From positions 1 to 35,451 of the forward strand of contig JAJTGL010000047.1 in assembly GCA_021297795.1 (NCBI GenBank): a stretch of 35,451 bases of DNA, in the 5' to 3' direction. The position numbers were made by a program, and so were the translations under genes. Shown one piece after another: positions 21,136 to 33,470 of this stretch (the first letter of the stretch is position 1; every line of letters starts with the position of its first letter). The notes under the pieces are model-generated. The model saw only the letters and a program-made list of their open reading frames with translations, did not search any database and was not told the DNA's origin. The DNA is from Planctomycetaceae bacterium. GTDB lineage: Bacteria > Planctomycetota > Phycisphaerae > Phycisphaerales > SM1A02.

Positions 21136-23793
21136 TCACCGCTTCAGAATCGCGTCGCAGTAGGCGACCAGCGACGACTTGTCGCCGAAGGCGCCGATGC
21201 TCCGCCGGCGTATGTCCTGCGCCATCGCGCTGGCCTCCACGCGGTCGGCCTCGGAGGCGCTCATCGAGAGCACCTCGGCAAGGGCGATCTCGACGCGGAG
21301 CCGCGCATCGGAGGACGTCTCGAGGGTCATGCGCGCCGCATCGGCGTCGCCCCGAAACCGCGCGATCCACGACGCATCGGCGATCCACGGCTCCGTACCC
21401 GCGGCGCGTCGAAGCTCGCGGGGGAGCTCGCTGCGGAACATCGCGCCGTGTACGGCGCTTCCTCCGATGCTCGAGAGCTCGTCGCCGAAGTCGCGCGCAA
21501 GCCGCAGCGCTGCATCGCGACCTTGATCGGAGAGGATCTGCCGGTACAGCATCTTGGCGGCGCTGAAGGTGGGCGCCGCGTGCGCGGTTCCGGCTCCCGC
21601 GAGCTCGATCAGGCCCTCGCGAAGCTCGGTGAGAGCGCGCTCCCTGTCGCCTGGCGCGTCGCGCACCTCGAGCGTCCGAGCGAGATGGCGTCGGGCGTTG
21701 CCTCGGGCAAGAAGCGACTCGGGGGTCTCCTCCTGCAGCGAGTCGATGATCGCGAGGTGCAGCGCGACCGCGTCGTCGAGGCGCCCGAGCACGCGCAGCG
21801 TCAGCGCAAGCTGCGATCGCCCTGGTGTCGCCGCGGGATGGCCCTTCCCGAAGTGCGCCTCGCGGATCGCGAGCGACTCCTCCGCGAACGGAAGCGCCTC
21901 GGCGGCCCGGTTGGTGTTGGTCAGCATCATCGCCGCGTTGTGCAGCATGCGCGCCCGCTCGGTCGGCCGGAGATCCGGAATCGTCCGCGCGAGTCCAGCA
22001 GCCTCGAGCGCCTGCTCGGTCGCCTCCGGGAGTCGGCCGACGAGTTCGAGTGCGAGCGCCCGCGTCGACATCGCGTGCGCGAGCACCGCTTCTTCGCGCG
22101 CGGCGCGAGCGAGCGCGATCGCATCGTCCGCGACGGCGAGCGCATGCGCGGGCTGCCCGGCGAAGACGAGCGTCGTCGCGAGGATCCCCGTCGCCTCGGC
22201 CCGGAGCGGAAGCGGCGCGTTGATCCGATCGATGACGGCGAGCGCATCGCGCGCCCGGTCGGGCGCCTCGGTGCGACGCGACGAATGCTGGAGCGACCGC
22301 GCCTCGGCGAGCAGCACTTCCGCGAGGTGCACGGCGTCCGCCGGCGCCGTGAGGAGTTCGGCCGCGCGCGCGTACTGGAGCGCCGCGCGCGGATAGTCGC
22401 CGATCTCGTGGAAGGCCAGGCCGAGCGTGCGTCGGAGATCCGCCTCCGATTCGCGCGGAACACCGGCGCTCTCGATGCTCTCGGCCGCGAGCGCGATGAT
22501 CTCCCTCGCACCCCCGCGATCGCCCGCCGCCTCGCGTTCGCGCAGGTTCGCGAGGAGATCGCGGAAGAACCCGTTCATGCGCTCGGCGCGATCGCGCGCG
22601 CGGTCGGCCTCGTCGGCGCGTGCGACCGCGGCGTTGCGCGCCTCGCTCGCGTCGATGGCGAGATAGGCCGACACGACGGTTCCCGACACGACCGCCCCGG
22701 CGGCAAGCGAAGCCAGCGCGGTCACCGCCTTGTGGCGTCGCACGAACTTCCTGATCACGTACATCGTGCTCGGCGGGTGCGCATCGATCGGCTCCTCGGC
22801 GAGATAGCGCTCGAGATCGCGCCGGAAGGCGTCGGCCGACTGGTAGCGGCGCTCGGCGTCCTTCTCGAGCGCCTGCATCGTGATGAGGTCGAGTTCGCGA
22901 GGAACGGCGTCGCGGAGGCGCGAGGGCGACGGTGGCACCTCCGACGTGATCGCCTCGAAGAGCGGAAGGATCGGAAGTCCGGTGTCGAAGGCCGTCCTGC
23001 CGGTGAGCGCACGGTAGAGCAGGAGTCCGAGCGCGTGCACGTCGGTGCGCGCGTCGATCGCCTCCGGACGCGCGGCGACCTGTTCGGGCGAGGCCCAGCC
23101 CGGCGTTCCCGCGAAGCCTCCGGTCCGGGTGATCAGCGGCGTCTCGGCGAATCCCTTCGCGAGTCCGAAGTCGAGCACCTTCGCCTCGTCGGTGGATGTG
23201 ACCAGCACGTTCGAGGGTTTGAGATCGCGGTGCATCACGCCGCGCCGATGCGCCGCGGCGACGGCCGAGGCGATGTCGGCGACCGCGCGCACGATGCGCG
23301 TCGTCGCATCGGCGGGGACCTGCGCGGACCACACGCGGTCCGCCCAGACATCGAATGGCACGCCGTCGACCCACTCCATCACGATCAGACGCGAGCCGTC
23401 GTCGTTCGGTGCGGCGAGCAGCGCGACGATGTTCGGATGCGCGAGCGCCGCGAGCGTCTCGGCCTCGCGCGCGAAGCGCGCGGCCTCGACCGATCCGCCG
23501 TCCTCGGAAGGAAGCCTCTTGATCGCAACGCGACGACCGGTGCGTGGTTCGCGTGCCTCGTACACGACGCCCTGCGCGCCACGCGCGACGACGCGCTCGA
23601 TGCGGTAGCCCGCGAGGATGCCCAGCTCGGACTGCGCGACCGCGCGCGACGTGCGCGCCATCCAGGCGTCGTCGGCGAACGCGCGGGCAACCGCCGCATC
23701 GATCTCGATCGACGGTTCCCCTCGGGAGCGCGCGCCTCCCGCAAGCCCAGGAGGTGTCGACGCAAGGGCGAGATCGTCCGGAGGCGGCTTCAC
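21136..23793 (-). CDS. membrane-anchored Ser/Thr protein kinase with a TPR-like sensor region
   Basis: An 885-residue receptor-type kinase. The Hanks kinase domain covers about 63-335, with RGAQGVV in the glycine loop (first Gly replaced by Ala), K92 in VAIKRL, HRDLKPSN at 188-195 (catalytic D190), DFG at 208-210 and SPE at 235-237, so it should be active. One transmembrane helix lies at about 357-380. The extracytoplasmic part (about 400-885) is an Ala/Glu-rich helical array resembling TPRs. The start is GTG at 23793: GAGGAGGAGAC directly precedes it, and GTGA overlaps the sigma-factor stop by 4 bp, indicating translational coupling. Planctomycete kinases of this plan are believed to control the adjacent ECF sigma factor by phosphorylation; that link is inferred here. 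Confidence 0.9.
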   Translation of the reverse strand: MKPPPDDLALASTPPGLAGGARSRGEPSIEIDAAVARAFADDAWMARTSRAVAQSELGILAGYRIERVVARGAQGVVYEAREPRTGRRVAIKRLPSEDGGSVEAARFAREAETLAALAHPNIVALLAAPNDDGSRLIVMEWVDGVPFDVWADRVWSAQVPADATTRIVRAVADIASAVAAAHRRGVMHRDLKPSNVLVTSTDEAKVLDFGLAKGFAETPLITRTGGFAGTPGWASPEQVAARPEAIDARTDVHALGLLLYRALTGRTAFDTGLPILPLFEAITSEVPPSPSRLRDAVPRELDLITMQALEKDAERRYQSADAFRRDLERYLAEEPIDAHPPSTMYVIRKFVRRHKAVTALASLAAGAVVSGTVVSAYLAIDASEARNAAVARADEADRARDRAERMNGFFRDLLANLREREAAGDRGGAREIIALAAESIESAGVPRESEADLRRTLGLAFHEIGDYPRAALQYARAAELLTAPADAVHLAEVLLAEARSLQHSSRRTEAPDRARDALAVIDRINAPLPLRAEATGILATTLVFAGQPAHALAVADDAIALARAAREEAVLAHAMSTRALALELVGRLPEATEQALEAAGLARTIPDLRPTERARMLHNAAMMLTNTNRAAEALPFAEESLAIREAHFGKGHPAATPGRSQLALTLRVLGRLDDAVALHLAIIDSLQEETPESLLARGNARRHLARTLEVRDAPGDRERALTELREGLIELAGAGTAHAAPTFSAAKMLYRQILSDQGRDAALRLARDFGDELSSIGGSAVHGAMFRSELPRELRRAAGTEPWIADASWIARFRGDADAARMTLETSSDARLRVEIALAEVLSMSASEADRVEASAMAQDIRRRSIGAFGDKSSLVAYCDAILKR

Positions 23794-24389
23794 GTCTCCT
23801 CCTCGGCGATCTGGCTCGCGACCAGCTCCTGCATGCGGTTGCGGATCCGCTGCTTGACCTTGTGGACGGCCTGCTCGGTCGTCGCGAATGCCGCGGCCAC
23901 CGTGTCGACGCCGTCGCCGCGCATCAGCCGTTCGAACATCGCCACGCCTTCCGTCGAGAACGTGCGTCGGATCTCGGCGAACGCCGTGCGGAAATGCTGG
24001 TCCATCCACTCCGACTCGAAGAGCTCGCGCGTCTCCGCCTCGCCGGCGAGATCGGCAACGCCGCCGAGCGCGTCGAGACTGCCCGCCGCTGCGCCCGCGG
24101 GTCGCGCGGCGCGCGCTCGGAGCCGATGGATCTCGTTGCGCACGGCCCGGAAGAGATAGTCGCGGAAGCGGCCCCTCGAAGCGTCGAGTTCGAATCCCCG
24201 CATGGCCCCGAGAAGCGACTGGAAGACCGCCTGCGCCACGTCCTCGGCATCGCTCTGCTGCAATCCCTGCTTCATCGAGAAGCGGACGACGAGCTCGCGG
24301 TAGTTCGCCTCGAAGCGCGCCCAGGCCGCCTCGTCGGAGGGGTCGCGGAGCCGCGCGATGAGCGTGAGCTGCGTCTGGGGAACGGCCAT
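23790..24389 (-). CDS. ECF sigma factor of the kinase-associated type
   Basis: A 199-residue sigma-70 family protein. Its opening QTQLTLIARLRDPSDEAAWARFEANYRELV is typical of planctomycete ECF factors encoded beside kinases. Sigma-2 (about 10-95) includes SDAEDVAQAVFQSLL and GRFRDYLFRAVRNEI. Sigma-4 (about 130-190) ends in a complete helix-turn-helix, VDTVAAAFATTEQAVHKVKQR. Its stop codon overlaps the GTG start of the kinase. There is no Shine-Dalgarno sequence. A TAGACT hexamer ends 6 nt before the ATG, so the message is probably leaderless. Confidence 0.9.
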   Translation of the reverse strand: MAVPQTQLTLIARLRDPSDEAAWARFEANYRELVVRFSMKQGLQQSDAEDVAQAVFQSLLGAMRGFELDASRGRFRDYLFRAVRNEIHRLRARAARPAGAAAGSLDALGGVADLAGEAETRELFESEWMDQHFRTAFAEIRRTFSTEGVAMFERLMRGDGVDTVAAAFATTEQAVHKVKQRIRNRMQELVASQIAEEET

Positions 24390-25985: not shown

Positions 25986-27329
25986 GTGCACTTGACCATC
26001 GCGAGCCACGATCCTGCGCAGCTGATCCCACCGGCCGTCGGTGGTGCGCTTGCGCTGCTGTGCGTCTGGGCCGCGGTGCGCGCATCGCGCATGCGACGTT
26101 TCATCGATGACATGCCGACGTCAAAGACGGCTGGCGTTTTCATCGGTGATGTTGAGTTGAAGGGCACCGCCGAGACATCGCAGCCGTTTACGACGTATCT
26201 CTGGGGCGGCAAGTGCGTCCTGTACAGCTGGACGGTCGGCGAGCACTGGAGCCGCACCGTCATCGAGACCTACACCGATTCGAAGGGTCGCACGCAGACG
26301 CGGACGCGTCGCGAGTCGGGCGTCACGACGGTCGCCTCCGGCGGTGAATCCGCGCCGTTCTACCTGCTCGACGATACGGGACATCTCCTCATCCGCCCCG
26401 AAGGTGCGAACCTCGAGCCGCGCACGGTGTTCTCCCGCACGGTCGGGCGCGGAGACTCGCTCTACTACGGCAAGGGTCCGCCGGGTGCGGTATCCAACTC
26501 CGATCATCGCCGCACCTTCACGGAGGTGGCGATTCCGATGCACGAGCCGATCTTCGTGATGGGCATGGCGCGCGAACGGAAGGACGCGGTGGCCGCCGAG
26601 ATCGCGCACAGCGCAGATCAGGTGCACTTCCTCATCTCGGTGCGCGATGAGAAGGCGATTTCAGGCGGATACGCGTGGGGCACGTGGCTCTGGGCGATCT
26701 TCGGATTCATCCTTTTCGTCGTCGGAGTCGTGATCGCCGAGCGCAACGGTCGATTCGTGCAGGAGACATCGATCGCCATCTACGTTGCCGCGGTGGTCGC
26801 GTTCCTCGGCGTCTACTTGATCGCGTGGTCGCTGACCGTCTTCAACTCAATCCTTCGACTTCGGCAGCGTGCGCGTCGCGCATGGTCGAATATCGACGTC
26901 GAGTTGAAGCGTCGACACGATCTCATCCCGCGGCTTGCCGAGTGTGTGAAGGGCTACGCGATGCACGAGCGCGACACCCAGCAGGTGGTCACGCTGCTCC
27001 GCTCGCAGTATGCGCTTTCCCCCGAGGAGGCGCGCGGCCGCGAGGCGAAGGTGATCGGGCTTTCGCCCGCGATGGTTGCGGTTGCCGAGGCATATCCCGA
27101 TCTCAAGGCGTCGGAGTCGTTCCTTGCGCTGCAACGCGAGCTCGCCGTCACCGAGAGCCGCATTGCGATGGCGCGCACGTACTACAACGGCGTCGCCACC
27201 GCGTTCAACGGACGACTTGCGGTCGTGCCTGATGCATGGCTCGCCGCGATTGCGCGATTGAAGGCGTTCGAACTGTTCGAAGCGAAGGGTCTTGAGCGCC
27301 AGAGTGTGGCGGTTGACTTCGCGCAGTGA
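25986..27329 (+). CDS. GIDE-domain / LemA-domain fusion membrane protein
   Basis: A 447-residue protein starting with GTG, set by a strong AGGAGGA (25974-25980) 5 nt upstream. The N-terminal helix (about 11-30) is followed by a GIDE-like region (about 45-215): VFIGDVELKGTAE, a KCVLYSWTV strand, SAPFYLLDDTGHLLIRPEGA, and FTEVAIPMHEPIFVMG. Two transmembrane helices lie at about 225-247 and 255-278. The LemA domain (about 280-447) opens with NSILRLRQRARRAWSNIDVELKRRHDLIPRL and includes a TESRIAMARTYYNGVATAFN helix. In eukaryotic MULAN the GIDE region is the substrate-binding part of a membrane E3 ligase; no RING is present here. LemA proteins are membrane proteins of largely unknown role. Joining both in one chain suggests an envelope-associated complex. 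Confidence 0.8.
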   Translation: MHLTIASHDPAQLIPPAVGGALALLCVWAAVRASRMRRFIDDMPTSKTAGVFIGDVELKGTAETSQPFTTYLWGGKCVLYSWTVGEHWSRTVIETYTDSKGRTQTRTRRESGVTTVASGGESAPFYLLDDTGHLLIRPEGANLEPRTVFSRTVGRGDSLYYGKGPPGAVSNSDHRRTFTEVAIPMHEPIFVMGMARERKDAVAAEIAHSADQVHFLISVRDEKAISGGYAWGTWLWAIFGFILFVVGVVIAERNGRFVQETSIAIYVAAVVAFLGVYLIAWSLTVFNSILRLRQRARRAWSNIDVELKRRHDLIPRLAECVKGYAMHERDTQQVVTLLRSQYALSPEEARGREAKVIGLSPAMVAVAEAYPDLKASESFLALQRELAVTESRIAMARTYYNGVATAFNGRLAVVPDAWLAAIARLKAFELFEAKGLERQSVAVDFAQ

Positions 27330-27365: not shown

Positions 27366-30300
27366 TCAACGGATACGCAGGATTCCGACGCGGTCCACTG
27401 CATGAATCGCGTCACTCTCAAACCACAGTGAGCGAAGTTGTTCCTGCGAGAGAAGCAGCATCATCTGCTCCTCCAGAGTGTTCGCGTCGAGTATCCGCAT
27501 CGTGCCGTCTGCCCCGCCGGTCACGAGGCGCGAACCGTCGAGAGTGACGGCCATGCACGACGCGCGCGTGCGCTGTCGGCGCGATTCGGCGAGCACGCCG
27601 CCGTCGTGCGCATCGAGCGCCACGACGAGTCCGTCACGGTCGGCCGCAAACACACGTGTGCCGTCGACCGACGCGGCGACGTCGGTGCAACTTGCGCCGA
27701 TCGGGCGTCGCCAGCGCTCGCATCCGTCGCGCGCATCAAGGGCCACGCAACCGAGCGTGCGCGATGCGACATACGCGCTGTGGTCGACGCCGTCGAGGGC
27801 GAGCGACGGAATGCCTTGCGGTTCATGAATATCTTCGGAGCAAAGCGCGGTCGTCGACCAGCGCACGCGTGCGGTGGCGGTCTCGACCAGCGAGATCGTC
27901 CCGCACGCCCGGAGGACGAGGACCGTCGCGTCGTCGGGCGCGATCGCCACGCGCGAGACCGCGCCTTCGCCTGGAATCGGAGGAAGGCGTTTCTCGAGGC
28001 CAGTCGCGACTTCGGAGAGGCGCGGCTCGGGGCGCGCCGCGGTGGACGGCTCGACACGCAGCGCACGGCCCGTGCGCGAGAGGGGATCGATCGAGCCGCG
28101 GCCGATCCACGCATCGCGCGCCTCTGGCTGGGCGAGCGTGAGTGCGCCCTGCGATGCGGTCGCCAGCGAGCCATCGGGCGCGGCGGCCAGCGACCAGACG
28201 ATATCGTCGGCAAACGGAATCGTGGCGATCGCGGATCCATCCTCGATCCGCCAGAGCCGCAGCGAGCCGTCCGCTCCGGCGGAAAGGATGCGCGCTGGTT
28301 CTGTACGCGCGTCGATCTCGATACTCCACACGGCATCGTGATGTCCACGTGCGGTCCACAGCGGACGCGCCTGCAACGGATCGTGCAGCCGCACGGTGCG
28401 GTCCCATCCGCCGATCGCGAGTCGGCGGCCGTCTGGTGTCCAATGCAGCGCGACCTGATTGGCCTGCGGGGTTTCGAAGCGAGTGGCCACGCGCAGGCCG
28501 TCGTCCGAGCGCTCGAGAAGCACGGCGCCACCGTGGCCCGCGACGGCGACGAGCCTCGGATCGCTCGGTGAGAACGCGATCGCGCGGAGGCTTCCGACGC
28601 CAGGGTCGATCGCCGCGATGACGCGCGCAGGGTTGTCGATCGGCCGGAGTTCGAGTCGGCTGCGTGCGATCGCGATGGTGCCATCGGAGGCAAGTGCGAT
28701 GGCGCAACTGTTCGGAATCGGTTCATCGCATGGAATCGTCGCAAGGACCGTACCGTCCGCGACCTCGAGCACGACGATTCCGCAATCCGCATCGATCACC
28801 GCGACGCGCGCACTATCCGCCGACACCGCGACCGTGTTCGTCACCGTCGGGTTCGCCGCGGTCGACCACATGCGGCGCCAGCGCACGGGTGCGCCGCGGA
28901 TCTCGGCGTCCAAAGCACTCTCCCGCTCGAATCGCGCGAGGATCGGGCCGTCCTTCGAGCCGGGCGGATAGCCGACGGCCAGTACGCCGTTCGCGTCCGT
29001 GCGCGCCATCGCGTACCAATCGCCCTCCGCGATCGTCGCTCCGCGCAGACCGATCGCGCGCTCGATGATCGCACGCTCGATCGATCCGTCGTCTGCGCCG
29101 AGCGCCTCGGCATGCTGCTCGACAAGCATGAGGTCGCCGGCATCGATTGCGCGCGCCGCGGCACTGAGGTTTGCGAGTCGCGCCTCATGTCGCGCGGAGC
29201 GTGCAAAGGTGAGGGAGATGCTTGTCGTCGCGACAAGGAGGCCCGCGATGAGCGCGCTGATCGCGACCACGCGTCGATGCCGACGCAGCGCGCGGACAAG
29301 CCGCTCGCGCGGCGATTGGAGTTCAGCGAGCACCGGTTCGCCGGCAAGATGGCGTCGGAGATCCTCGGCGAACTGCGATGCGCTTGCGTATCGGAGCGCG
29401 GGATCCTGCGCCGTCGCCTTCGCTGTGATCCGGTCGAGATCGCCGCCGAATCGCGGCGAGGCGGCCACGAGCCGCGGCGAGGCGGTTCCGATGGTCTCGG
29501 CCATCATGCCCGTCAGATCAGATGAGCGGAACGTGCGGAAAGCTCGGCGCGCGAGCAGTTCGTAGAGGATTGCACCGAGCGCGAAGATGTCGGCGCGGAC
29601 GTCGGGGCGCGATGCCGGATCGAGCGCCTCCGGTGCGGCGTACGCGAGGGTTCCCTGCACGCGTGCGCCGAGCACGTGGAGATGGATGACGCCGCGACCG
29701 TGGGCGAAGGCGACGGCTTCGGCGATCGCGATCATCATGCGTACGCAGGTGGTGTCGTCGTGCGCCTCCGAGGCCCACTCCGCGAGGGTGCGGCCGCCGG
29801 GCACGAACTGCATCGCGAGGTAGCGCCGTTCCGCGCCGCCCGCGGCGACCGTTCCGGTCTGGTAGAGCCGTGCGATCGACGGATGCTCGAGGCTCGCGAG
29901 GAGCTCGGCCTCGCGGGTGAGTCCCGCGCCGCCGATGAAATCGTCGAGCAGGAGCTTGAGCGCGACCGCGCGGGTCGGAGTCAGTTGCGTGGCGAGGTAG
30001 ACCTCGCCCGTGGCGCCCCGTCCGAGGAATCCGTCGATGCGAAACGCGCCGACCATGGACCCGACGAGCAGCGTCCCCGGGCGGCCGCGTCCGGCGGACT
30101 CTCCCGACGGCGCTTCGATCTCGCCATGGGTTTCCGCGGCGTGGGCGGCGTCTGGCGACGCGTCGGGCAAGGATGGGGTTTTCGGGTTCGCGGTGCCGAC
30201 TTGACGCTCGAGTTCGACATGACGGGCCAGCATCGCCTCGGCCTCTTCGAACACATCTGCCGGGAACCGTCGACGTGCTTCCTCCCGATTCCCTTCGTAC

Positions 30301-30374
30301 AGTGCCGAGAAGCATGCATGCACCGCGATCAGGCGGTCGTTCGGAGAAGCGGACTCGGCATGGTCCCGGAGCAT
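27366..30374 (-). CDS. membrane-anchored kinase-like protein with WD40/PQQ-type propeller, lacking the catalytic loop and DFG (pseudokinase)
   Basis: A 1002-residue protein. An N-terminal helical region (1-100) precedes a Hanks-type kinase fold (about 108-345), a transmembrane helix at about 369-390, and a beta-propeller of WD40-like repeats (about 450-1002; for example DGRRLAIGGWDRTVRLHD and ARILSAGADGSLRLW). The kinase keeps LGRGATGEVYLA, K140 in VALKLLL, an alpha-C Glu, AAPE (246-249) and DVRADIFALGAILYELL. However, H231 of GVIH is followed directly by LHVLGARVQGTLAYAAPE: the HRDLKPxN loop and DFG are missing. From that His to the Glu of the APE motif is 18 residues, against 49 in the kinase at 21136-23793. 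The frame is intact. TAAGAT lies 9 nt before the ATG. Confidence 0.85.
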   Translation of the reverse strand: MLRDHAESASPNDRLIAVHACFSALYEGNREEARRRFPADVFEEAEAMLARHVELERQVGTANPKTPSLPDASPDAAHAAETHGEIEAPSGESAGRGRPGTLLVGSMVGAFRIDGFLGRGATGEVYLATQLTPTRAVALKLLLDDFIGGAGLTREAELLASLEHPSIARLYQTGTVAAGGAERRYLAMQFVPGGRTLAEWASEAHDDTTCVRMMIAIAEAVAFAHGRGVIHLHVLGARVQGTLAYAAPEALDPASRPDVRADIFALGAILYELLARRAFRTFRSSDLTGMMAETIGTASPRLVAASPRFGGDLDRITAKATAQDPALRYASASQFAEDLRRHLAGEPVLAELQSPRERLVRALRRHRRVVAISALIAGLLVATTSISLTFARSARHEARLANLSAAARAIDAGDLMLVEQHAEALGADDGSIERAIIERAIGLRGATIAEGDWYAMARTDANGVLAVGYPPGSKDGPILARFERESALDAEIRGAPVRWRRMWSTAANPTVTNTVAVSADSARVAVIDADCGIVVLEVADGTVLATIPCDEPIPNSCAIALASDGTIAIARSRLELRPIDNPARVIAAIDPGVGSLRAIAFSPSDPRLVAVAGHGGAVLLERSDDGLRVATRFETPQANQVALHWTPDGRRLAIGGWDRTVRLHDPLQARPLWTARGHHDAVWSIEIDARTEPARILSAGADGSLRLWRIEDGSAIATIPFADDIVWSLAAAPDGSLATASQGALTLAQPEARDAWIGRGSIDPLSRTGRALRVEPSTAARPEPRLSEVATGLEKRLPPIPGEGAVSRVAIAPDDATVLVLRACGTISLVETATARVRWSTTALCSEDIHEPQGIPSLALDGVDHSAYVASRTLGCVALDARDGCERWRRPIGASCTDVAASVDGTRVFAADRDGLVVALDAHDGGVLAESRRQRTRASCMAVTLDGSRLVTGGADGTMRILDANTLEEQMMLLLSQEQLRSLWFESDAIHAVDRVGILRIR

Positions 30375-30475
30375 GCGAACGGGATCTTACGGAATCGCTG
30401 CCCGCGATCCGATGCTCCGACGCTTGATTCGCTGCCTGCTGTCGTCGCGGCAGGGGCTTGGTCCGTACAGAATGG

Positions 30476-31102
30476 ATGGCAGTGCACGAGGATCCAAAAA
30501 CATCCCACGGGATATCGCAAGGTTCCGAGTCGGCGTCCGCGCCGATGGACGCCACGCGATCGGCGGCGGAATCACGGCAGCGGTTGGTCGAGCAACTGCT
30601 CGCCCGACATGCGTCGGGTGAGGGTGGGGCGCTGGAAGCACTGTGGCGCGAGATCTACGGGGAGGTTCACCGCCTGGCGCGCACGATGCTCTCTCGCGAA
30701 GGCGCTCGGCGTCCGATCGATACCACCGTCCTCGTTCACGAGCTCTTCCTCAAGATGGGCGGCGCGACCTTCGAAAATCGTGCGCATCTCTTCGGATCGC
30801 TCGCGCGGATGATGGGTCAGATCGTGATCGACGCGGCCCGCAAGGCGACCCGCGAGCGTCGTGCCGGCGAGTACTTCGCCGACGAGGCGCGTGCGGGCGC
30901 AACCGACGGACGCGGGCTCTCGCTCGATACGCAGGCGATCGGCCTGCCCCGGGATGGGACCGGCGAACTCAGTGCCTCCGTGATTGGTGTCCTTGGTCGA
31001 CTGGATCGTCTTGCGCCACGCGCGGCCGCAGTGGCGGCGTTCGCACGCGCGTGGATGCACCGGGAGCTGTCCGGGATGGACGGGGGTCCACGCGGAGCCT
31101 GA
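30476..31102 (+). CDS. ECF sigma-factor-like protein lacking the sigma-4 DNA-binding helix-turn-helix
   Basis: A 208-residue protein of the planctomycete ECF type. Sigma-2 is complete: ALEALWREIYGEVHRLARTMLSREG, TTVLVHELFLKMGG and FGSLARMMGQIVIDAARKATRERRAG. In sigma-4 the opening helix LGRLDRLAPRAAAV runs directly into AAFARAWMHRELSGMDG, which is the usual end of the recognition-helix region. The segment that normally lies between them in this family (roughly 25-35 residues, of the form ELRFFGGLTxxExAxxLGxSxxTVxRDW) is absent, with the junction near 31031-31040. It may be an eroded gene or a core-binding protein that no longer reads the -35 element. The start is uncertain: ATG 30476 is used, with GTG 30482 and ATG 30545 possible. 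It is divergent from the pseudokinase. Confidence 0.75.
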   Translation: MAVHEDPKTSHGISQGSESASAPMDATRSAAESRQRLVEQLLARHASGEGGALEALWREIYGEVHRLARTMLSREGARRPIDTTVLVHELFLKMGGATFENRAHLFGSLARMMGQIVIDAARKATRERRAGEYFADEARAGATDGRGLSLDTQAIGLPRDGTGELSASVIGVLGRLDRLAPRAAAVAAFARAWMHRELSGMDGGPRGA

Positions 31103-31205: not shown

Positions 31206-31463
31206 ATGCATCACGCATATGCAAAGGAACCGGACGCAGCGCGCTTGGCGACGGAGCCGTCGGCGGCGGATCGGCGCCGCTGGGACGAGATTCAACGGCT
31301 CTTCGAACGCTGCCGGGAGCGACCGAGGGACGATTGGCACGCGTTGCTTCGGGCCGAATGCGAGGGCCGTGAAGGCATCGCGTTTGAGGTGATGTCGCTC
31401 CTCGTTGCGGCCGAGAACCTGCCGCCGATCGAAGAGCCGGCATCGATGTCGAAGGCAGTCTGA
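31206..31463 (+). CDS. orphan N-terminal accessory domain of a planctomycete Ser/Thr kinase
   Basis: An 85-residue protein with a good AAGGAG 6 nt upstream of its ATG. The segment RRRWDEIQRLFERCRERPRDDWHALLRAECEGREGIAFEVMSLLVAAE matches the short helical domain that in planctomycete sigma/kinase modules precedes the kinase domain (pattern RWxxlxxLFxxaLxxpxxxRxxfLxxaCxxxxxLrxEVxsLLxAxe). Here the frame ends soon after, at VSKAV-type residues and TGA, with no kinase following. It sits 103 bp after the sigma-like gene, the position a kinase would take. It is therefore probably a truncated kinase kept as a small protein, or a remnant. Confidence 0.6.
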   Translation: MHHAYAKEPDAARLATEPSAADRRRWDEIQRLFERCRERPRDDWHALLRAECEGREGIAFEVMSLLVAAENLPPIEEPASMSKAV

Positions 31464-31568
31464 GAGATTTCTGCCCTTTCGGGTAGTTTGGGACGCACGT
31501 GTCCTGTCGGAAGTTCTCGTCCGGCGATTTCGTGCATGCAGCCACGTTTCATCTTGAGGAGTTTGAAG

Positions 31569-33470
31569 ATGCGTTCCGAGTCGATGGTCGGTGTCTTGAC
31601 GATGGCGATTGCGGTGGCATGCGCGGGCGCCAGCTCGGCGTTCGGCGGTTCCGGCTGCCCGACCGTCATCCATGTTCCGAAGCAGGCTGCGTCGATTGAC
31701 GCTGCGATCGCGCAGGCGTGCCCCGGTGTGCCGCTTGAGGTGGTCGTCGCGCCAGGCACGTGGACGATGGAGATCGACACGGGCGATCCGCTCATCGACA
31801 TCACGATTCGTGGTGTAGACAAAGAGACGACCATCATCACAGGTGGAAAGCCGGGCACACTCCTCAACGCGCGGTACGGATCTGCGGTGCTGCTGAAGCA
31901 CCTCACGCTCTCCAATGCCGTGCAATCAGGCTCAACCGTCGAGGATCTTGCGTGGGATCTCTCGTTCGACGACTGCATCGTCGAAGGTTGCGTGGGCGCA
32001 TTCCTTTTTGGTGCGCCCGCGTCTCGTCCCGCCGCAAGCAAGACGCGCTTCGAAAATTGCGTCGGTTCAAGTTACGCCGTGCTCTATCTCGAATCGCATG
32101 ATGTTTCGAATTGCGAGTTCGTCGACTGCGCGCGCCCTGTCATCTCGTGGGGAACATCGGAAATCACCGATTCGACCTTCATCGGATCCTCCGGTTATGC
32201 CGTTCAAACGCGCAGCAACTTGACGGTCGCGCGTTGTTCCTTTCAGCAGAGCGTTGGACATGCGGTGGTTGGTATCGCCAATCAGCCGATCACTGGAACG
32301 ATTGTCGACAGTCAGTTCGTCGGTGGTTCCGACAGTGCCATCGTCGACACATACTTCAACCCCGCGACAGTGTCTGATGCCGCGGGGAGTTGGAACATCG
32401 TTGGAAGCACATTCATCGACAACACGACGGCCACGAAAGGCGGTGCGATTCGCGTCGGCATCAATCGTGCCGTGACGCTCGCCGATTGTCAGTTCCTCGG
32501 AAACACCGCGGCTGAACCCGGTGGCGCATTTGCGCAGGAATTCGGCGGGTACGCGCAACGGTTGGAAGCGGATGGCTGCACCTTTATTGGGAACTCGTCG
32601 ACTGGAAGCGTGGGCGGCGCGCTGTCGGTCGTTGGTTGGTATGGAATCATGGAACTCAGCGGGTGCACATTTCGAGAGAACACGGCCCTCGCATCAGGTG
32701 CGATCGTTCTCGACCGCACGGTGATGGTCGTCGAGGATTGCGTCTTCGAGGACAATGCAGCGACCAAGGTGTTTGCAGGCGCGATCTCGACACTCATTGC
32801 GCGTCCGGGCAGCGTGATTCGGCGCACAAACTTTATCGAGAACTCTGCCGCAACTTCCGCGGGAGCGTTACACCTCTATTCCTACAGTCACGTAGACCTC
32901 GAGGACTGTGTGTTCCGTGGCAACTCCTCCGTGTCGAGTGGTGGCGCAGTGGTCTCCGATCTCGCGTGCGAGGTCGACATCACACGCTGCCACTTCGAAG
33001 GGAACACGGCGCTGAGTGGTTCGGCTGTTGTCGGCTCTGGACCGAATTTCGTGCTTGCGATGAGCGATTGCTCCGTCGCGGGTGAGATCAATTCGTCGGC
33101 CGAGCAGCATCCAGTGCTCGCCGATGAACAAGGTCTCACGGTCGCTACGACGACTTTCTGCGCAAGCGGTGCGGAACCGTTGAGTGCGCTCGTCGCTGAC
33201 GCCGGCGGCAACTGCATCTCCGAGTACTGCACCGACTTCGATGCGAACGGCGCTCCCGACGTGTGCGAGTGCGCGACGAATCCCGCGCTTCCCTCGTGTT
33301 GCCTCGGCGACCTCTTCAACGACGGCGCGGTGAACGCCGCCGACCTCGCGGTGGTGCTCACGCAGTGGGGCGAGAAGGGCCTCGGACTCGAGGCCGACCT
33401 CGACGGCAACGGCATCGTGAACGGCATTGATCTCGCCATCGTGCTCTCGAACTGGGGTGTGTGCGACTGA
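31569..33470 (+). CDS. secreted right-handed beta-helix protein with C-terminal dockerin repeats
   Basis: A 633-residue exported protein. The signal peptide is about residues 1-27 (MVGVLTMAIAVACAGASSAFG). Residues about 35-540 form a parallel beta-helix of pectate-lyase-like or polymorphic-outer-membrane type, with repeated Cxx.xNxA/S...GGAI turns such as CTFIGNSSTGSVGGALS, CTFRENTALASGAIV and CVFRGNSSVSSGGAVV. A Cys-rich linker (YCTDFDANGAPDVCECA) follows, then two dockerin segments (about 578-633) containing NDGAVNAADLAVVLTQWG and LDGNGIVNGIDLAIVLSNWG. No catalytic site is evident, so a structural, adhesive or polysaccharide-binding role is as likely as a lyase. Shine-Dalgarno GAGGAG 7 nt upstream decides the start. 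By eye the helix part is less GC-rich than neighbouring genes. Confidence 0.85.
   Translation: MRSESMVGVLTMAIAVACAGASSAFGGSGCPTVIHVPKQAASIDAAIAQACPGVPLEVVVAPGTWTMEIDTGDPLIDITIRGVDKETTIITGGKPGTLLNARYGSAVLLKHLTLSNAVQSGSTVEDLAWDLSFDDCIVEGCVGAFLFGAPASRPAASKTRFENCVGSSYAVLYLESHDVSNCEFVDCARPVISWGTSEITDSTFIGSSGYAVQTRSNLTVARCSFQQSVGHAVVGIANQPITGTIVDSQFVGGSDSAIVDTYFNPATVSDAAGSWNIVGSTFIDNTTATKGGAIRVGINRAVTLADCQFLGNTAAEPGGAFAQEFGGYAQRLEADGCTFIGNSSTGSVGGALSVVGWYGIMELSGCTFRENTALASGAIVLDRTVMVVEDCVFEDNAATKVFAGAISTLIARPGSVIRRTNFIENSAATSAGALHLYSYSHVDLEDCVFRGNSSVSSGGAVVSDLACEVDITRCHFEGNTALSGSAVVGSGPNFVLAMSDCSVAGEINSSAEQHPVLADEQGLTVATTTFCASGAEPLSALVADAGGNCISEYCTDFDANGAPDVCECATNPALPSCCLGDLFNDGAVNAADLAVVLTQWGEKGLGLEADLDGNGIVNGIDLAIVLSNWGVCD

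Follow-up and report, generated by a model that had tools for sequence, protein, structure and literature searches.

Clean in-frame holes in a WD40 kinase gene and its divergent ECF sigma factor gene most likely mark scaffold joins in a draft planctomycetal genome

A protein kinase whose catalytic core is missing from an otherwise open reading frame may be explained in several ways. The remaining lobes could be kept as a binding or sensing module, the core could have been deleted only recently, or it could be missing from the assembly and not from the organism. The question is raised by a gene in the window, that is, the whole stretch of 35,451 nucleotides analyzed here, which comes from the draft genome of a Planctomycetaceae bacterium and contains no N letters. 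The gene (27366..30374, minus strand) is an open reading frame of 1002 codons that encodes a kinase domain, a transmembrane helix, and a WD40 propeller. Pfam splits its Pkinase domain into two stretches and adds WD40-type propellers; the hydrophobic stretch, read by eye, begins at residue 369. Our analysis indicates that the 102 bp missing from this gene are probably an unmarked scaffold join in the draft and not the mark of a kept pseudokinase.

In the translation of the window, the codon of H231 (29682-29684) directly abuts that of L232 (29679-29681), after which the protein continues as LHVLGARVQGTLAYAAPE. The stretch from HRD through DFG is thus absent in frame, and both catalytic aspartates are gone between H231 and the APE motif. 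The original prediction, which had GVIH running straight into L232 with the HRDLKPxN loop and DFG cleanly missing, is confirmed in this respect on the 1002-residue translation. The motifs that it described as retained were all located as well: the ATP-site lysine (K140), the glycine loop (GRGATG, from residue 118), and APE (residues 247 to 249). From the histidine to the glutamate of APE there are 18 residues, versus 49 in the intact kinase-TPR protein of the window (21136..24009, minus strand) that had served as the comparison; we reproduced both counts, the latter by eye on the translation. As written, the protein could not phosphorylate, in line with the original proposal. Structure models from single sequences were of unusable quality for the window kinase domain and for an intact control alike (mean pLDDT of 36.6 and 39.4, respectively).

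We searched for orthologues in 61 genomes and in the 16 genomes of the genus. They were found in four other genomes of the genus (G004, G005, G010, and G011) and, in the 61-genome search, in one of the same family (G032, which carries a second copy). The orthologues of all five genomes keep DFG and HxD-LKPxN, with HCD in G004. Relative to G005, G010, G011, and G032, the window kinase is short by 34 codons, or 102 bp, reaching from the HRD loop to the activation segment (junction H231|L232, 29681..29682, minus strand); relative to G004, it is short by 36. The junction edges are sharp in the orthologue alignment, with about 1 bp of shared sequence. None of the five orthologues lacks this block, and the loss therefore exceeds chance variation. 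The clean gap first described stands, whereas its size, 31 by the first comparison, which was with a paralogue, has to be revised. Orthologues that all keep these motifs, together with a copy traced to an assembly error, had been named as the outcome that would overturn the first reading; the former is what the five genomes show, and the latter we judge only to be most likely.

If the short kinase were a kept form, it might recur in other genomes, as the original prediction anticipated. When 301 genomes of the order were searched with a 68-residue query that spans the junction, 115 of them gave a match; among the matches listed, only the window's own genome matched the full query. Because weak matches also ran over the junction, the best loci of 30 of these genomes were fetched and read. 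HxD and DFG are kept in 29 of these (27 by pattern and 2 with HRDITPRN and DFG), while in the remaining locus, which retains DFG, the HxD loop is masked by a run of N. Among the kinase loci from the 61-genome search, 28 of 29 are intact, and the last is a C-terminal contig piece of G010 without the N-lobe. No second short form was thus found among the matches listed from the 301 genomes, in the 30 fetched loci, or in the 29 earlier ones, and the same loci show no loss of catalytic residues common to several genomes, such as would define a pseudokinase family.

The window holds a second hole, which the original prediction did not mention. Starting 83 bases upstream of the kinase gene and divergent from it lies a gene for an ECF sigma factor (30458..31102, plus strand; PF07638 and TIGR02999-like by Pfam and NCBIfam profiles). 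This protein covers only positions 4-104 of 185 in PF07638 and 4-102 of 183 in TIGR02999, and its homologue L061:8731-9549 spans positions 13-184 of 185 in the former profile; ECF region 2 is present in the window sigma factor, and the region 4 helix-turn-helix is absent. At the junction A193|A194 (31036..31037, plus strand), homologue alignment shows that 84 bp are missing (28 codons, W..DW, the sigma-4 helix-turn-helix). The 28 residues are kept in five homologues from four genomes, and their loss is clean and in frame; five 84-bp gaps of this kind were counted (L061, L064, L065, and L067), and L063 is shown intact in the homologue alignment. A divergent sigma gene adjoins the kinase gene in G004, in G005, in G010, and in both G032 copies, and the G011 contig stops short. 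The two clean holes are 1.36 kb apart and fall in two genes of one route, so that a shared cause has to be considered.

If the holes are joins, the pair is probably intact in the organism and would consist of a membrane kinase with a WD40 sensor propeller and a divergently encoded ECF factor. In kinase-regulated ECF factors, as described in PMC8103513, uncharged residues replace the DAED motif, and the factor binds core polymerase again once Thr or Ser at this site is phosphorylated. The window sigma factor has DTTV at residues 88-91, and its homologues have ETTV or DTTV, the match to the DAED position having been placed by eye. The kinase would phosphorylate the Thr-Thr stretch that replaces the DAED motif and thereby switch the ECF factor on, so that an outside signal would lead to kinase activation, sigma phosphorylation, and transcription. 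The intact relatives resemble a conventional sensor kinase paired with an ECF factor under kinase control.

To see whether the remainder is decaying, we counted, for each copy, the deviations at positions on which the five other homologues are unanimous. The window kinase deviates at 2 conserved sites of the N-lobe and 3 of the C-lobe; the intact kinases of G005, G010, G011, G004, and G032 deviate at 3, 0, 1, 4, and 13 sites of the N-lobe and at 0, 2, 1, 5, and 14 sites of the C-lobe, respectively. For the sigma factor, there are 2 deviations in the window copy and 2, 1, 2, 3, and 14 in the others. The window copies thus fall within the range of 0 to 5 of the close intact copies (G005, G010, G011, and G004), and by these counts there is no sign of relaxed constraint or decay outside the holes in either gene. 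The loss must then be very recent or else absent from the organism itself.

Identity is nonetheless uneven along the kinase gene. The window and G005 are 63% identical in the N-lobe and 76% in the propeller, whereas G005 and G010 are 82% and 70% identical, respectively. Accelerated evolution of a dead domain was considered and rejected: the outgroups G011 and G004 are not correspondingly more distant, and differences are also seen in synonymous change. Codon counts of the latter were saturated and were given no weight. We read the unevenness as mixed ancestry rather than relaxed constraint. The window gene itself looks mixed, its residues up to about 340 standing apart from G005 and G010 and those from about 680 being close to G005. 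Farther along the window, a block of 2193 bp that includes a beta-helix/dockerin gene (31278..33470, plus strand) aligns gap-free with its syntenic counterpart in G005 at 96.6% identity; its neighbors are 69-75% identical to G005, and GC drops from about 0.69 to about 0.60. This block is either a recent exchange or a chimeric join. On the other side of the kinase gene, a protein at 25986-27329 has a GIDE domain followed by a LemA domain according to Pfam and is found in G005, G010, and G011 too.

Holes of the same kind occur elsewhere in the draft. From the genome G013, 215 genes were compared with 0.97 Mb of the draft and another 42 with a further 0.18 Mb (1.15 Mb), and we took as clean any loss of at least 80 bp in which both 12-residue flanks are identical at 11 or more positions. 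Clean losses were found in 2 of the 257 genes, both unrelated genes on other contigs. One removes 111 bp from the gene for pyruvate phosphate dikinase (L112, near 3097, on contig C1; Pfam domains PPDK_N, PEP-utilizers, and PEP-utilizers_C), in which the residues around the hole are 86-90% identical to those of G013; the other removes 114 bp from a peptidase-like gene (L104, near 18449, which is near 65,448 of contig C53) with an HELGH motif and no Pfam match. The reverse scan of 193 draft genes against G013 DNA gave no such loss in G013, where the largest equally clean loss is 51 bp. The numbers are small, 2/257 versus 0/193 is not significant by itself, and the gene sets of both scans may contain shadow ORFs. 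When the flanks were relaxed to at least 9 of 12, the draft gained one loss of 138 bp, and no out-of-frame loss of at least 40 bp was seen in it with such flanks; looser out-of-frame losses measure 151, 139, and 185 bp, the 139-bp one being a run of 30 N. A frameshift scan of all ORFs was spoilt by antisense shadow ORFs in GC-rich DNA (26 and 34 events) and was replaced by these gene-based scans. Among 45 rows of the draft, no ABC_tran domain is split over two frames. The draft has 16 kinases above the cut-off, counted from rows; those on contigs C113 and C114 show small frameshifts in the activation segment near the contig starts (L097, about 939-1618, and L098, about 1025-2051).

The N runs of the draft show how its gaps are written. 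There are four in 1,154,636 bases, of 36, 30, 2, and 14 bases, and none in 1.2 Mb of G013. The best measured case is the run of 36 N, which represents about 187 bp by comparison with the G013 homologue and is therefore short by about 151. The run of 30 N represents about 169 bp, a shortfall of about 139 from a less certain alignment, and those of 2 and 14 N are short by about 59 and 27 bp on a weak basis (a repeat-protein match of 36-39% and inferred dockerin spacing). The shortfall is not constant across the four runs. If the understatement reaches about 150 bp, a join that lacks 84 to 114 bp would be written with no N at all and could then resemble a clean deletion.

Taken together, four clean losses in unrelated genes and the understated N runs point to the assembly. 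Contig ends flanking the conserved kinase core would have been placed end to end with a gap estimate of zero or less, so that no N was written, and a join of the same kind would have been made in the partner sigma gene, the pyruvate phosphate dikinase gene, and the peptidase-like gene. That assemblies do break at this place is indicated by the G010 orthologue, which is divided over two contigs within the kinase domain, and by another kinase in G274, in which an N run covers the HRD loop. The holes are most likely such joins, given their sizes and sharp edges, the intact relatives, the lack of decay, and the understated gaps. Several points count against this reading, among them the lack of out-of-frame losses with good flanks in the draft, the uneven shortfall of the N runs, and the small gene counts. 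An overlap-free join is not made by a plain de Bruijn graph, so that a scaffolding or gap-closing step is needed. In addition, all four holes (84, 102, 111, and 114 bp) are multiples of three, for which the chance is 1/27 in the three that were not selected for an open frame. Collapse of a repeat was also considered. Between the 60-base flanks of these junctions and the remainder of the draft examined, shared sequence is limited to 14-17 bp, a length comparable to that at 150 random sites (mean, 14.6; 95%, 18), and since there is no long repeat in the flanks, simple repeat collapse is not the cause.

The in-frame holes would agree better with true, very recent deletions in the strain, or in part of the sampled population, that knocked out both kinase and sigma factor and left no time for decay. 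The proposed mode, by short homology or blunt, suits the clean junctions, at which about 1 bp is shared, as would be the case after end joining. The two genes hit belong to one pathway, in keeping with pathway loss, and the adjoining region 31278-33470 may have recombined recently. Yet the loss of a pathway cannot explain like holes in pyruvate phosphate dikinase and in the peptidase-like gene, and the N runs show that gaps in this draft are understated. We therefore regard recent deletion as a rather unlikely, if serious, alternative.

We give very little credence to the first proposal, that of a kept pseudokinase whose lobes and propeller act as a binding or sensing module, with the sigma factor, now lacking region 4, as a decoy or titrating protein. 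In its favor, the frame is open through 1002 codons, the domain is conserved outside the hole, and pseudokinase families whose activation loops are shortened are described in bacteria (PMC12599244). Against it, the lysine, the glycine loop, and the later motifs are all retained in the form seen in active kinases; the deletion-bearing family ActPs3 in the same source has all motifs degraded. The short form does not recur among the matches listed from 301 genomes or in the loci read, constraint is not relaxed elsewhere in the domain, and the sigma factor lost its DNA-binding part simultaneously. The catalytic loop holds the C-lobe of a kinase together, and it is this loop that the hole removes. 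Were the losses real, enzyme activity and DNA binding would have been lost as a pair in one signaling route, by one clean in-frame deletion each. Were they also kept, the result might be a nonenzymatic pair, for instance one in which the dead kinase lobe of a propeller sensor holds a sigma decoy that binds core polymerase, an outcome that we consider highly improbable. With an unmarked scaffold join as the preferred reading, the loss of the catalytic core is present in the sequence but probably not in the organism, and the kinase becomes ordinary once corrected. The case serves as a warning: before a clean in-frame hole in the most conserved core of a gene from a draft metagenome genome is called a pseudoenzyme, partner genes, N runs, and unrelated conserved genes should be inspected.

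These features can be set against known systems. Chen et al. (PMC7111523) describe, in 2020, local assembly errors in metagenome drafts that not even one read supports, with one assembler mainly suspected. The likeness is a join whose sequence possibly lacks read support; the difference is that its passages on such errors mention neither clean losses without N nor the word deletion. The pseudokinases ActPs3 and EssB/YukC (PMC12599244) share with the window copy the lost HRD and DFG motifs and a shortened activation segment, but they are families that are conserved across many species and whose motifs are all degraded, whereas the window has one copy in which the remaining motifs are intact. 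Planctomycetal Hanks-type kinases with C-terminal WD40 repeats are predicted to have a cytoplasmic kinase and a periplasmic WD40 part (PMC11032199). The window protein has the same kinase domain, transmembrane stretch, and C-terminal WD40 repeats, and it differs in being without both catalytic aspartates; the same source counts kinase domains as functional only with the K, D, and D sites. The closest counterpart for the pair is the kinase-regulated ECF43/EcfP type (PMC8103513). The window copy differs from it in being without region 4.2 and is likened to it by neighborhood and motif only: the kinase gene adjoins the ECF gene, and DTTV lies, as placed by eye, roughly at the DAED position.
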